From positions 124,001 through 188,000 of the forward strand of contig NZ_FZPH01000011.1 of the NCBI RefSeq assembly GCF_900188485.1: a stretch of DNA of 64,000 bases, read 5' to 3'. The DNA comes from Asanoa hainanensis. GTDB taxonomy: Bacteria; Actinomycetota; Actinomycetes; Mycobacteriales; Micromonosporaceae. How positions within the stretch are numbered: the first letter of the stretch is position 1; every line of letters starts with the position of its first letter. Both the position numbers and the translations under genes were made by a program. This document shows, piece after piece, positions 32,618 through 38,099 of the stretch. Under the pieces are notes generated by a model. The model searched no databases. It saw nothing but the letters and a program-made list of their open reading frames with translations, and was not told the DNA's origin.

Positions 32618-35600
32618 TCAACGGATGACGGACGTCCGCCGCCCACGGAGCCGAGGCCACTTGCCCTTGCCCTGCTTGCCATCACCGTCCTTGCCGTCAC
32701 CGCCGCCGTTCTCGCCGCTGCCGTCCTTGCCGTTGCCGTCCTTGCGGTTGCCGTCCGCGCCGTCCGCACCGCCCGACGTGTCCTGGCCATCAGGGTCAAC
32801 GGCAGCAGACCCATTCCCGGGTACGGCTGACCGCGGCGCCTTGGGCTCCCCAGGCGTGCTGGGCCGAGGACCCGCCGCCGTCCCTGCGCCACCGTCCGGT
32901 GCGCCGGACCGCAGCTTGGGCAGCGATCCCCCGTCGCCCACCAGACCGTTGTCACCGACGTCGGCCTGCGCGGACAGCCCCGCCGGCCGCGGCGGATCGT
33001 CGGCCCTACCAGCCCCGTCGCCGCTTGTTGCGCTTCGCTGTGGGTTTCCGTCTCTTACCGGTAGCTCCGAAGCCCGTAGGGCGCTCGTATGGCCAGAGGG
33101 GCTGTTATCCGCGCTCTCCGCCGACTTCCCGGTGTCGGACCCGCCGCCGGTCGGCTTGCCACTGGCACCACCCGAACCCGCGGCGCCCTGACCGCCGGCC
33201 GCCGAACCGCTGTCACCCTGGCGCCCGCCGTTCTCGGACGGCCGCCCACCGCCGCTGTGCGCGGGCCGGCCGTTACGCCCGTCACCGTTGGCCGGACGCC
33301 CTGCGGTCGCACCCCGCCCACCGCCACCACCGGCAGTCGCACGAGAGCCACCGGCCCGGCCGGCCTGTCCGCCCTGCGCAGCCGCGCCGGTCGATGCACC
33401 TGTGGTGCTTCCGCCACCCGGCGCCGCCGACCGATCAGCTGTCTCCTGGCCCGCGGCACCGCCCGCCCGAGCGGACGCGCCGCCACTGCCCAGGGCACCG
33501 TCCGCCTTCCTGGAACGGTCCCGCGCCACACCGGCGTCAGCCCGGTCGCCAGCGGCAGGTGCCGACGCACCAGAGGCACCGTTGCCGGCAACAGCACCCG
33601 CGCCCGAAGCGCTGCTCCCTCCAGGGGCGCCGTTGCCGTCGGACGCGGGCCGCCCGACATAGCCGTTCGAGCCGGCCTGCCCGCTGGAGGTCGCCGCAGC
33701 CGAGCCCGCCGCCGGCGCCTTACCCGACGCGGGGCTGGCCACGGGCGCGGCGCCGTTCCCGTTCGAACCCGCCTGCCCAGCCGACGCCCCAGCAGCCGGC
33801 CCCTTGCCCGACGCGGGGCTGACCGCAGGACGGGAGCCATTCCCATTCGAGCCCGCCTGCCCGGCGGACGCCCCAGCAGCCGGGCCGGCAGCCGACGTCC
33901 CGCCAGACACCGGGCCGACCGCGGAAGCGGCGCCGTTCCCGTTCGAACCAGCCGGCCCAGCCGACGCCCCAGCAGCCGGCGGCTTGTCCGACACGGGGCC
34001 GGCCACGGAGCCAGAGCCATTCCCATTCGAACCCGCCTGCCCAGTCGCCGAGCCCGCCGCTGGCGCCTTGCCCGCCGCCGGGCCGACGACGGAGGCCCCG
34101 CCGTTCCCGTTCGGACCCGCCTGCCCAGCCGACGCACCAGCAGCCGCGCCCTTGCCCGCCGCCGGACCGGCCACGGACGCGGCGCCGTTCCCGTTCGAAC
34201 CCGCCTGCCCAGCCGATGCACCAGCAGCCGAGCCCTTGCCCGCCGCCGGGCCGACCACGGAGGCCCCGCCGTTCCCGTTCGAACCTGTCTGCCCGCTCGA
34301 CCTACCAGCAGCCGAGTCCGCCGCCGCGGTCTTGCCCGCACCGGGACTGGCGGCACGAGCGGACCCAGTGCCGCTCGAACCCGCCTGCCCGGCGGCGGCC
34401 GCCGGCCGGGCCGAGCCGGCAAGCGGAGCCTTGCCCGCACCGGCATCGGCGGCAGGACCGGACGCATCGCCGCTCGAGCCGGTCTGCCCGCGAACCGCAG
34501 CCCCCGAGCCGGCCGCCGGAGCCTCGCCCGCGCCAGGACGGGCAGACGGAGCGGACGCGTTCCCGTTCGAAGCCCGCTGCCCACCAGCGGCCGAGCCGGC
34601 TGCTGGGGCTTTGCTCGACGCGGAGCCAGCGGGCGTGGATCCCGATGCCGCTGGGGCGTTGCCGTTCGACCCGTTGCCGGCCGCCGAGCCGGGCACCTGC
34701 GCCTTGCCTGCGACAGGGCCGGTAGCCGGAGCGGAGCCGCTCCCAGTCGCCGGGCCAGCCGCGGGCGCCTTGCCAGAGCCAATGGGAGGGTTCGAGCCGG
34801 CCTGCCCGCTCGGGGCCGCCGGTGCCTTCGACGGATCCGCTGGCGCGGTCCCAGTAGGTGCGGCCGCGCCGGAGGGGGCCTTCGCCGCTCCACTGCGGGC
34901 GGTCGACCCAGCGGCACCGGGGGCGATGCCGCCAGGTACGCCGGCCCGGCCCGTCGCCTTGGGCTTGGCGGTGCCGGTCGATTCTGGCGCTTCGGCTGGC
35001 GCGGAGCCCTTCGCCTTCTTGGTCGACGCACCCTTGGCGCGGCCCTTGCCCAGGAGGCCGTTCTTGCCGAACAGGCCACCCTTGCCTGGCTTCGCCGGCG
35101 GCTCGGCGGGGGGCGCGTCATGCACAGAGCCCATCTCGCCGTTGACCGGCGTCGGGGACGGGCGCGCGGCGTCGTGTCGACCACTGGCGGAGTTGCCCTT
35201 GACCGCGGCCTGGCTGGAGTCGTGCAGCCGGCCGCCATCGTTGCGCTGCGGACCGGCCGCGGCCACCGCGGACCCGGCACCCGCCGCCGCAGAACCGGCA
35301 CCCGCCACCGCGGACCCGCCGCCCGCCACAGCAGAACCGGCACCCGCCACCGCAGACCCGCCACCCGCCACCGCAGAACCGGCACCCGCCGCCACAGACC
35401 CGGCACCCGCCGCCGCGGACCCGGCACCCGCCGCCGCGCCAGCGGCAGCATCCTTCGCCACCGCCGCTGATGCGGTTGCCCGGACGCTGGCTGCCTTCGC
35501 GCTCCCGGGGGCGGAGCCTACGACGGAGGCAGCGGCAACCGGTGCCGGCTCGAACGAGATCGTGGAGAGGACCTTGTCCGCCGCGTCCTCGCGGCGGCGG

Positions 35601-35971
35601 CGCGCGGCCAGGGCGAGCTCGAAGTCACGGCGGGCCTTGACGGCGTCGTTGTACGCCTCCGCCCGGATGCGTTGCGCGTCCTCGCGGGCCTTGGCCAGCA
35701 CCTCGCGCGCCTCGGAGACGATCTCGGTGGCCTCTTCCTCGGCCAGGGCGACCATCTGCTGCACCCGGTGCGTGTTGCGGTAGACGGCGGGGCGGGCCCG
35801 GAGCATCTCGTGCAGGCGTTCCGCTTCGGCGCGGACCATTCCGAGCTCCACCCGCATGGTGGCGGCGCCCTCGGCGGCTGCGGTCGCCGCCGCTAGCTGC
35901 TCGCCCAGGTCCATGAGGCAACTTTCGACCTCGTCGCGGTCGTAGCCGGATTCGACGATGGAGAAGTCCAT
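32618..35971 (-). CDS. Giant DivIVA-like protein with silk-like repeats
   Basis: About 1117 residues from ATG 35971 (GGGGGCGAG upstream). The N-terminus MDFSIVESGYDRDEVESCLMDLGEQL resembles the DivIVA membrane-binding start, followed by a coiled coil to about residue 140 (AEEEATEIVSEAREVLAKAREDAQRIRAEA). The rest is low complexity: seven-residue repeats (AGAGSAV type), then at least a dozen repeats of about 28-33 residues containing GQAGSNGNG and PAAGK, and a Gly/Asp/Lys tail ending in a basic patch. DivIVA proteins recruit polar growth machinery; the tail may be a flexible spacer or phase-separating segment. No membrane helix. Confidence 0.8.
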   Translation of the reverse strand: MDFSIVESGYDRDEVESCLMDLGEQLAAATAAAEGAATMRVELGMVRAEAERLHEMLRARPAVYRNTHRVQQMVALAEEEATEIVSEAREVLAKAREDAQRIRAEAYNDAVKARRDFELALAARRRREDAADKVLSTISFEPAPVAAASVVGSAPGSAKAASVRATASAAVAKDAAAGAAAGAGSAAAGAGSVAAGAGSAVAGGGSAVAGAGSAVAGGGSAVAGAGSAAAGAGSAVAAAGPQRNDGGRLHDSSQAAVKGNSASGRHDAARPSPTPVNGEMGSVHDAPPAEPPAKPGKGGLFGKNGLLGKGRAKGASTKKAKGSAPAEAPESTGTAKPKATGRAGVPGGIAPGAAGSTARSGAAKAPSGAAAPTGTAPADPSKAPAAPSGQAGSNPPIGSGKAPAAGPATGSGSAPATGPVAGKAQVPGSAAGNGSNGNAPAASGSTPAGSASSKAPAAGSAAGGQRASNGNASAPSARPGAGEAPAAGSGAAVRGQTGSSGDASGPAADAGAGKAPLAGSARPAAAAGQAGSSGTGSARAASPGAGKTAAADSAAGRSSGQTGSNGNGGASVVGPAAGKGSAAGASAGQAGSNGNGAASVAGPAAGKGAAAGASAGQAGPNGNGGASVVGPAAGKAPAAGSATGQAGSNGNGSGSVAGPVSDKPPAAGASAGPAGSNGNGAASAVGPVSGGTSAAGPAAGASAGQAGSNGNGSRPAVSPASGKGPAAGASAGQAGSNGNGAAPVASPASGKAPAAGSAAATSSGQAGSNGYVGRPASDGNGAPGGSSASGAGAVAGNGASGASAPAAGDRADAGVARDRSRKADGALGSGGASARAGGAAGQETADRSAAPGGGSTTGASTGAAAQGGQAGRAGGSRATAGGGGGRGATAGRPANGDGRNGRPAHSGGGRPSENGGRQGDSGSAAGGQGAAGSGGASGKPTGGGSDTGKSAESADNSPSGHTSALRASELPVRDGNPQRSATSGDGAGRADDPPRPAGLSAQADVGDNGLVGDGGSLPKLRSGAPDGGAGTAAGPRPSTPGEPKAPRSAVPGNGSAAVDPDGQDTSGGADGADGNRKDGNGKDGSGENGGGDGKDGDGKQGKGKWPRLRGRRTSVIR
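33665..34760 (-). repeat. Tandem 84-99 bp coding repeats in the DivIVA-like gene
   Basis: The marker (G/A)TTCGA or GCTCGA recurs at 33665, 33761, 33845, 33941, 34025, 34109 (GTTCGG), 34193, 34277, 34373, 34472, 34565 and 34664. Spacings are 84 (most common), 93, 96 or 99 bases, all multiples of three, so frame is kept. Each unit encodes about 28 residues around GQAGSNGNG. Copies in the centre are most alike, pointing to recent expansion. Confidence 0.85.
35261..35440 (-). repeat. 21-bp coding repeats (seven-residue AGAGSAV type)
   Basis: About eight units of 21 bases around CGGCACCCGCC and CCGCAGAAC, with a 42-base higher order made by alternating AGAGSAV and AGGGSAV. They lie just after the coiled coil of the DivIVA-like protein. 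Confidence 0.8.
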
Positions 35972-36088
35972 TAGCTCGCCCCCAAGCAGCCAGTCGTTTC
36001 CCCTCCCGGCCATCCTCCCGAGGCATTACCGCGTTTCGGGGCGTTTTGCGGAATTAAATCCACATTGGCCCGTACGCGGCAGGGCGTG

Positions 36089-36424
36089 TCAGGTGTCGTC
36101 GCTCAGCAGCGTGTCCAGACCACTGATCTTGAGTACGCGGGCGACGACCCCGCGGGCGCCGGTCAGGCGCAGCGAGCCTCCGGCGGCGGAGCTCAGGTGG
36201 TGGCCGCGGATGAAGGCCGACATTCCGGTCGAGTCACAGAAGGTCACGTCTTGAAGATCGATGACGAGGTGGGTACGCCCGTCGCCGATCACCTCGTCGA
36301 TGCGTTCGCTGAGGTGCGGGGCGGTGCTCAGGTCGAGCTCCCCGGCGAGGCGCAACACCACCACATCCGGCCGGTCCACCCGGCTGACCGTCAATGTGAC
36401 GGAGGCGTCGTCAATCGTTGCCAC
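36089..36424 (-). CDS. STAS-domain anti-sigma factor antagonist
   Basis: 111 residues, the length of a single STAS domain. The loop CDSTGMSAF has Ser65, the usual site phosphorylated by an anti-sigma kinase. When unphosphorylated such proteins bind the anti-sigma factor and release a sigma factor. No partner kinase or sigma gene is next to it. It lies alone between the DivIVA-like and polyphosphate glucokinase genes, with 117 bases to the former. Confidence 0.92.
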   Translation of the reverse strand: MATIDDASVTLTVSRVDRPDVVVLRLAGELDLSTAPHLSERIDEVIGDGRTHLVIDLQDVTFCDSTGMSAFIRGHHLSSAAGGSLRLTGARGVVARVLKISGLDTLLSDDT

Positions 36425-36545: not shown

Positions 36546-38099
36546 CTACCGACTGGACCGCGAGCCGCTCTTCCGCGCCGCCGACTTGCGGATCGGGCTG
36601 GTCGCCCGCGCCGTCGAGCTCGTCCGGCGCGCCGCACTCGTGGTCTTCCGCGCCGCCGATGTGGACCTGCGGGCCGCCGATGTGGAACTCCGCGCCGCGG
36701 ATGTGGACCTGCGCGCCGAGGTGGACCTGCGGCCCGCGGTCGACGCCTTGCGGGCGGTGCCGGCCCGGCTCGTGCTGGCCTTGCGCGCCGTGCCGGACCG
36801 GCGGGCCGGACCCGTGGAAGCCTTGCGGGGCGCGGTCGCCTTCCGGGCGGTCGTCGACTTGCGCGTGGCCGGTGCCTTGCGCGCCGTCGTCGACTTCCGG
36901 GCGGTCGTCGCCTTTCGGCCCGCGGTCGACTTCCGCGCCGTCGTAGCCTTGCGGGCCGCCGACTTCCGCGCCGTCGTCGCCTTGGCCGCCGTCGACTTGC
37001 TGGGCGTCGCCGCCTTGCTCGCCGTCGTGGACTTACGCCCCGCCGTCGACTTACGCGCGGTTGTGGACTTACCCGCCGTCGTCGACTTACGCGCAGTTGT
37101 CGACTTGCGCGCCGTCGAAGACTTCCGCGCCGTCGAGGACTGCCGCGCCGTCGACGACTTCCGCGCCGTCGAGGACTTGGTGGCCTTGCGCGGCGTGGCC
37201 GACTTGGTCGCCTTCCGGGCGGCCGGAGCCGCCTTGCGCGTGCCCCCGGCCGACGCGGTCTTACGCGCGGGAGCCGCCTTCCGCGTGCCCCCGGCCGAAG
37301 CCGTCTTGCGCGCGGGAGCCGCCTTCCGGGCCCCACCCGTAGCGGTCATCGAACGGCCGTCGCGGGCCTGCGGCGACGCGAGGACCGCGCCGATGATGCC
37401 GGCGTTGTTGAGCAGCATCGCCGGTACGACCTCGGTCTCGATGTCGAGCCGGTCGAGGAAGTTGTCGGACTTGCGGCTCACCCCGCCACCGACGATGAAC
37501 AGGTCGGGGCTCAGCAGTTGCTCGAGGTGCTGGAGGTACTTGCGGACCCGCTTCGACCACGCGCCCCAGCCGAGGTCCTCGTCGGTGCGCACCCGGGCCG
37601 CCGCGCGCTTCTCCGCGTCGACGCCGTGCATCTTGATGTGGCCGAACTCGGTGTTCGGCACGAGCATGCCGTCGATGAAGACCGCGCTGCCGATGCCCGT
37701 ACCGAAGGTCAGCATCACGACCTTGCCCTTGCGGCCCTTGCCCGCACCGAACTCCATCTCCGCCATGCCGGCGGCGTCGGCGTCGTTGATGAGCGCGACC
37801 GGGAGGTGCAGCTCGCGCGAGAAGAGCTTGGCCCCCTCGGTGTTCATCCACGACTTGTCGACGTTGGCCGTGGTGCGGACGACGCCGTTCTGGATCACGC
37901 CGGGGAAGGTGATGCCGACACGCTGGGGCCGGGTCTTGAAGTGGCGAACCACCTCGCCGACCGCCGCGACGACACTCTTCACGTTGGAAGGCTGCGGCGT
38001 GTCCACCCGGAAGCGTTCACCGGTCAGCTCGCCACGCCTCATGTCGACCAGCGCGCCCTTGATGCCCGAGCCGCCGATGTCAATGCCGATAACCGCCAT
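36546..38099 (-). CDS. ppgK: Polyphosphate glucokinase with a histone-H1-like tail
   Basis: 517 residues. Residues 1-250 form a ROK-family polyphosphate glucokinase: phosphate motif GIDIGGSGIKG (5-15), catalytic Asp107 in LINDADAAGMAE, GTGIGSAVF (133-141), GHIKMHG, GGGVSRK. It phosphorylates glucose with polyphosphate or ATP. Typical family members end near 250-270. Here about 267 further residues are almost only Lys, Arg, Ser, Thr and Ala, with no Asp or Glu seen, in repeats such as ARKSTT, ARKSS and RKAAPARKTASAGGT. Such a tail should bind polyanions, either polyphosphate (the substrate) or DNA. Upstream gene ends 53 bases away. Confidence 0.92.
   Translation of the reverse strand: MAVIGIDIGGSGIKGALVDMRRGELTGERFRVDTPQPSNVKSVVAAVGEVVRHFKTRPQRVGITFPGVIQNGVVRTTANVDKSWMNTEGAKLFSRELHLPVALINDADAAGMAEMEFGAGKGRKGKVVMLTFGTGIGSAVFIDGMLVPNTEFGHIKMHGVDAEKRAAARVRTDEDLGWGAWSKRVRKYLQHLEQLLSPDLFIVGGGVSRKSDNFLDRLDIETEVVPAMLLNNAGIIGAVLASPQARDGRSMTATGGARKAAPARKTASAGGTRKAAPARKTASAGGTRKAAPAARKATKSATPRKATKSSTARKSSTARQSSTARKSSTARKSTTARKSTTAGKSTTARKSTAGRKSTTASKAATPSKSTAAKATTARKSAARKATTARKSTAGRKATTARKSTTARKAPATRKSTTARKATAPRKASTGPARRSGTARKASTSRAGTARKASTAGRRSTSARRSTSAARSSTSAARRSTSAARKTTSAARRTSSTARATSPIRKSAARKSGSRSSR

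Follow-up and report, generated by a model that had tools for sequence, protein, structure and literature searches.

The open reading frame at positions 36546-38099 (minus strand, ATG start) of the window, the 64,000-nucleotide stretch of the Asanoa hainanensis genome analysed here, encodes a polyphosphate glucokinase (PPGK) of 517 aa, more than half of which is an acid-free tail rich in lysine and arginine. The locus raises the question of what a long polycation is doing on an enzyme whose own substrate, polyphosphate (polyP), is a polyanion. The source genome comprises 8.64 Mb in 44 contigs, and the gene contains the following features:

37350..38099, minus strand: ROK-family polyphosphate glucokinase domain, residues 1-250 (NF045942, Pfam ROK and 1woq match)
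36549..37349, minus strand (stop codon 36546-36548): polycationic Ala/Thr/Ser/Arg/Lys tail, residues 251-517 (composition, conservation, dN/dS)
37225-37328, within the tail: 45-nt tandem array, 2.3 copies, 93% matches (Tandem Repeats Finder)
36835..37171, minus strand: 18-nt tandem array (6-aa period), 19.1 copies, 72% matches (Tandem Repeats Finder)
36783..36890, minus strand: best-conserved tail element (residues 404-439), TTARKAPATRKSTTARKATAPRKASTGPARRSGTAR (identity, dN/dS)

The enzyme domain and its C-terminal extension

The NCBIfam equivalog model NF045942 (PolPhglucPhase) matches residues 4-242 with 331.9 bits against a curated cut-off of 250, Pfam ROK matches the same domain, and the nearest PDB sequence is 1woq, an inorganic polyphosphate/ATP-glucomannokinase (E 1.4e-79, residues 3-240); the ATP-type ROK_glcA model reaches merely 77.1 bits against a cut-off of 260.35. 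Residues G9, G10, G12, K14, N105, D106, D108, T131, G133, T134, G135 and G137 are invariant across 55 aligned enzymes, and the motifs that they form, the glycine-rich phosphate motifs of ROK proteins and the NDADAAG region with the catalytic Asp, are intact. We identify the enzyme with confidence as a PPGK, predicted from these matches to phosphorylate glucose with polyP. Its enzyme domain is 97% identical to that of A. ishikariensis and 91% identical to those of A. iriomotensis and A. siamensis. Because exactly one match exceeds the PPGK cut-off in each of the six Asanoa genomes, the tailed enzyme is the sole PPGK encoded by them.

The last acidic residue of the protein is D247. The tail that follows consists of 68 Ala, 51 Thr, 46 Ser, 43 Arg, 33 Lys, 14 Gly and 9 Pro, with one each of Met, Gln and Ile, so that 76 of its 267 residues (28%) are Lys or Arg, 97 are Ser or Thr, none is Asp or Glu, and the net charge is +76. 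The initial annotation had described a PPGK fused to a long tail that lacks Asp and Glu and is built of K/R-S/T-T-A-R repeats, and our counts bear out this description, including the repeats (7 [KR]S[ST]TAR, 19 ARK[SAT] and 13 [ST][ST]AR). In 176 untailed relatives, no stretch of the enzyme domain without Asp and Glu exceeds 40 residues, so the tail lies far beyond what chance would give in a real protein.

The label "histone-H1-like", proposed in the same annotation, holds for composition and not for homology: the tail is a long, basic, Ala-rich and acid-free region of low complexity, as in H1-like and AlgP-type tails, and no Pfam model or PDB sequence matched it. It is not of the KPAA or proline-rich kind, having 9 Pro in 267 residues and K/R-S/T-x-A-R as its repeat. 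The domain search suggested for residues 251-517 returned no known domain from Pfam or from PDB sequences at E values up to 10, in a search that composition bias weakens, and we reject the tail as a known domain. A PDB sequence search with the most conserved element, which surrounds ARKAPATRKSTTARKSTAPRKASTGPAR, was likewise without match. By eye, its ARKS and APRK units resemble the N-terminal tail of eukaryotic histone H3, which is probably a convergence of composition. An AlphaFold run on 4 close sequences gave a mean pLDDT of 34.8, low over the enzyme domain too; from the composition, we infer that the tail is disordered.

Two neighbouring genes lie on the same strand. The nearer one, downstream of PPGK at a distance of 121 bases from its stop codon, encodes a STAS-domain anti-sigma-factor antagonist (window 36089-36424, minus strand). 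It is followed by a 1131-aa open reading frame (window 32618-36013, minus strand) with a coiled-coil N terminus, which resembles DivIVA, and a long Ala/Gly/Ser/Pro region of low complexity with GSNGNG repeats; neither Pfam nor NCBIfam models match it at E 0.001.

Conservation, distribution and origin of the tail

The tail is present in the same frame in all six Asanoa genomes analysed, where its length, measured from a fixed position behind the enzyme domain, is 272, 293, 282, 290, 392 and 606 residues, with 25.8-29.0% Lys and Arg and 0-4 acidic residues. Its charge is thus kept while its length drifts. A sequencing frameshift combined with untailed close relatives, which the initial annotation had named as grounds for giving up the fusion, is not what we found: frameshift or misassembly is rejected by the six assemblies, and a wrong reading frame by the concentration of substitutions at third codon positions (30, 11 and 72 at positions 1, 2 and 3 of the tail in one Asanoa pair, compared to 4, 4 and 23 in the core). 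Over the 15 pairs of Asanoa genomes, dN/dS is 0.12-0.17 for the core and 0.22-0.59 for the tail, values that are rough for the tail because its alignment is repetitive, but that lie below 1 in every pair. Purifying selection acts on the tail protein. The 36-residue element has 83-97% amino acid identity and a dN/dS of 0.05-0.17 over the same pairs, a low value that partly reflects selection by eye, as the element was picked for looking conserved.

Outside Asanoa, the long tail is rare. A PPGK match over the cut-off was present in 119 of the 354 genomes of the window's family, all of which were inspected: the six Asanoa genomes have the tail and the remaining 113 lack it. Measured from where the AGIIGA-type motif ends, the longest extension among the latter has 47 residues, of which 1 is basic and 4 are acidic. 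Sampling across the class covered 394 genomes, of which 231 had a PPGK over the cut-off, and inspection of all 24 entries with an open frame of at least 400 aa among the matches listed yielded a tail solely in G647. This genome belongs to g177, a genus of another order, in which all seven genomes carry a different cationic PPGK tail. In the family to which g177 belongs, a PPGK over the cut-off occurred in 293 of 341 genomes, and of the 74 inspected, 7 were tailed (all g177) and 67 untailed. Overall, 236 PPGK loci were inspected (a few genomes twice), comprising 13 long-tailed ones from two genera and 223 untailed ones with at most 66 residues beyond the core. No third tailed genus was found among these loci, which include 28 from genus g198 (PPGK in 60 of 65 genomes; longest extension 66 aa), or among the long-frame matches listed for the class sample; further tailed lineages may exist among the entries outside those inspected.

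The g177 tails are 169-401 residues long, have no acidic residues and contain 18.7-23.1% Lys and Arg, nearly all of it Arg, with merely 2-10 Lys each; they are composed of Arg, Ser, Thr and Gly in units such as RSTTG and RATTG. Taken together, the 13 tailed PPGKs of both genera have 18.7-29.0% Lys and Arg and 0-4 acidic residues over 169-606 aa. In a tree of 187 distinct enzyme domains, made with a quick method without bootstrap, the six Asanoa and seven g177 sequences form two clades with support 100 each, and each sits among the untailed enzymes of its own family. As the tree sets the tailed clades apart, two independent gains are strongly suggested as the likeliest and simplest reading, although a single gain followed by many losses is formally possible.

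The net charge of the core seemed at first sight a strong correlate of the tail, ranging from -2 to +5 in tailed enzymes with a mean of -8.9 in untailed ones (n=176), but it is not a clean one, because many untailed g198 cores also come close to neutral (from -10 to +1 over 21 loci, +4 in L236). Two g198 PPGKs, L298 (genome G1011) and L236 (genome G984), have short, mildly basic extensions that measure 66 and 30 aa from the fixed position, with net charges of +5 and +6, which is possibly what an early tail gain looks like. In one family member (G096:C97:14962-15616), the PPGK matches as two pieces in different frames, reflecting either a broken gene or an assembly error.

Candidate roles of the tail

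We propose, with moderate confidence, that the tail binds the polyP substrate and keeps the predicted PPGK on it, perhaps making the enzyme more processive. The disordered polycation would bind the polyanion on which the enzyme acts and hold the glucokinase on chains or granules of polyP, with which the tailed enzyme may form a coacervate; binding would raise the local substrate concentration, and the enzyme may remain on one chain through many transfers. Because the tail retains its charge although its sequence and length change, it would act as a polyelectrolyte rather than as a folded site. The kept composition, together with the second genus's tail, which was probably gained separately, favours a generic polyanion-binding role, and the conserved 36-residue element hints at an additional, specific one. 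We infer polyP binding, granule localisation and processivity partly from other systems, insofar as the published accounts consulted describe them. In Pseudomonas aeruginosa, AlgP has a KPAA tail and a net charge of +55, and removal of its C terminus leads to fewer, larger polyP granules (PMC9239181). The disordered C terminus of Hfq mediates its interaction with polyP and droplet formation with DNA (PMC10954037), and in bacteria polyP has been reported to interact strongly and non-covalently with Lys-rich sequences (PMC12077175). Through its Lys repeats, Streptomyces TopA stays on its polymer and becomes more processive (PMC7398561), and a PPGK of Propionibacterium has been reported to act in processive as well as nonprocessive reactions (Pepin & Wood 1986). 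Counting against polyP binding as the role, a long tail is missing in 223 of the 236 PPGK loci, the basic repeat tails described for actinobacteria belong to DNA binders, and A. hainanensis has a tail on its HU protein, while the polyP-related PPK1 and two CHAD-domain proteins of the same genome are without one.

The sole HU found in the source genome (L238), which we take to be of the HupS/HupB type, has a 105-aa tail with 29 Lys and Arg (25 Lys, 4 Arg), 42 Ala, 29 Ser and Thr and no acidic residues. Since the organism's HU has a tail of similar style, a link to the nucleoid is possible, and the PPGK tail could be an anchor for DNA (or RNA) of the HU or TopA type that holds the enzyme and any polyP bound to it on the nucleoid, so that polyP granules would be tethered to the chromosome. 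We keep DNA binding as a strong rival, tentative in itself, because Lys repeats also occur in HupS, Ku and HrdB: as far as the available part of that account goes, basic repeat tails of actinobacteria are described for the DNA-binding proteins HupS, Ku, HrdB and TopA (PMC7398561). The authors of the AlgP study likewise speculate, in the part available, that granules are tethered to the chromosome (PMC9239181). On the other side, the catalytic domain of PPGK uses polyP and there is no known reason for targeting it to DNA. The local similarity between the PPGK and HU tails (z 6.0 over composition shuffles) is one of style and no proof of common descent; the g177 tail, although different, reaches z 4.0 and a real orthologue z 21.2. 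Descent of the PPGK tail from the HU tail is unsupported, as the g177 tail also beats the shuffles, and the similarity reflects a common short-period style. Binding of polyP and of DNA are compatible, and both readings may hold. Their combination, an enzyme-substrate condensate of tailed PPGK and polyP on the nucleoid that would physically couple glucose phosphorylation to the state of the polyP store and to chromosome organisation, and would have arisen independently in two lineages, seems to us doubtful.

The genes for PPK1, one CHAD protein and the tailed HU lie within about 7 kb (G000:C44:61139-67935; L238, L239, L240), so that a polyP synthesis gene lies beside the gene of a tailed chromatin protein. 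A ppk1-hupB neighbourhood also occurs in mycobacteria, and the CHAD domain has been reported on polyP granules. Among 32 loci of other ROK genes of Asanoa, 26 passed a motif filter and were inspected (two genes twice), and no basic tail was found in them. We also screened 864 kb of Asanoa DNA, namely the window and 40 stretches of 20 kb from a second genome (G003), one of which was placed deliberately on its PPGK. A filter for Lys-bearing tails, which the HU tail used as control passes, matched the two PPGK genes and one Arg/Lys-rich open reading frame in L252 that is apparently off-frame; Arg-only tails are indistinguishable from off-frame noise, and looser filters were swamped by off-frame Arg-rich frames. 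By these results, together with those for PPK1, CHAD proteins and HU, the tail is a rare feature whose style also occurs on an Asanoa chromatin protein.

A largely neutral origin, in which a GC-rich tandem repeat expanded after loss of an old stop codon and the resulting hydrophilic extension was tolerated as harmless, is improbable. The dN/dS below 1 in all 15 Asanoa pairs speaks against such an origin, as does a composition kept in two genera, although the tail is repetitive, varies more than two-fold in length within Asanoa and evolves faster than the core, and tandem duplication could likewise homogenise its composition. Random change at 30% of positions gave the PPGK tail of the window 17.2 residues of other kinds (FWYLIVMCHNQ), with a minimum of 8 over 300 runs, compared to the 2 observed, and lowered Lys and Arg from 76 to 63.8, whereas the count of acidic residues alone was not decisive (mean 3.9, minimum 0). 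With 10% change, the null model does not distinguish the Asanoa tail from drift; the g177 tail L218 is not clearly distinguished even at 30%.

A regulatory platform, in which phosphorylation of RKS/RKT sites by Ser/Thr kinases, or acetylation or polyP modification of Lys, switches polyanion binding, is likewise improbable: such sites are dense among the 97 Ser and Thr of the tail, and unpublished data on Lys acetylation in the TopA repeats are discussed in the accessible part of one account (PMC7398561), but a Lys-based switch cannot be general because g177 tails have merely 2-10 Lys.

Relation to known proteins and significance

According to the available portion of the AlgP study, a functional interaction with polyP is known for only a few proteins of bacteria (PMC9239181), and among the matches listed from titles and abstract openings of open-licence PubMed Central papers, no tailed PPGK is described. 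A natural polycation tail that is separable, with untailed relatives as controls and an apparently independent second gain, makes enzyme access to polyP directly testable. The tailed PPGK is a natural candidate for enzyme-substrate coacervation, and its tail a possible module for polyP-driven, ATP-free biocatalysis.

PPGKs of the 1woq type have the enzyme domain and motifs in common with the Asanoa enzyme, but in the untailed loci (n=223) no more than 66 residues follow the core. The tail of the organism's own HU is, like that of PPGK, rich in Ala, Thr and Lys and acid-free; it is about 105 aa long, has 25 Lys to 4 Arg and belongs to a DNA-binding family. The remaining comparisons are limited to the parts of the published accounts that were available. 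Topoisomerase I of Streptomyces is also an actinobacterial enzyme acting on a polyanion and has C-terminal basic repeats, which raise the processivity of TopA, but its substrate is DNA and its repeats are Lys-rich with terminal acidic residues (PMC7398561). The phasin PhaF also belongs to storage granules, and its tail, a homologue of the AlgP tail, is thought to bind DNA; however, the granules consist of polyhydroxyalkanoate, to which PhaF is reputedly bound through an amphipathic helix, and it is no kinase (PMC9239181). The nearest studied parallel is AlgP of P. aeruginosa, which like the Asanoa PPGK combines an N-terminal part with a cationic repeat tail. Its N-terminal part is predicted to be helical, and its 154-aa repeat region, predicted to be disordered, is histone H1-like; the protein is associated with polyP granules. 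AlgP differs in its KPAA repeat, compared to K/R-S/T-x-A-R with little proline in Asanoa, and is described there as determining granule number and spacing, not as an enzyme (PMC9239181).
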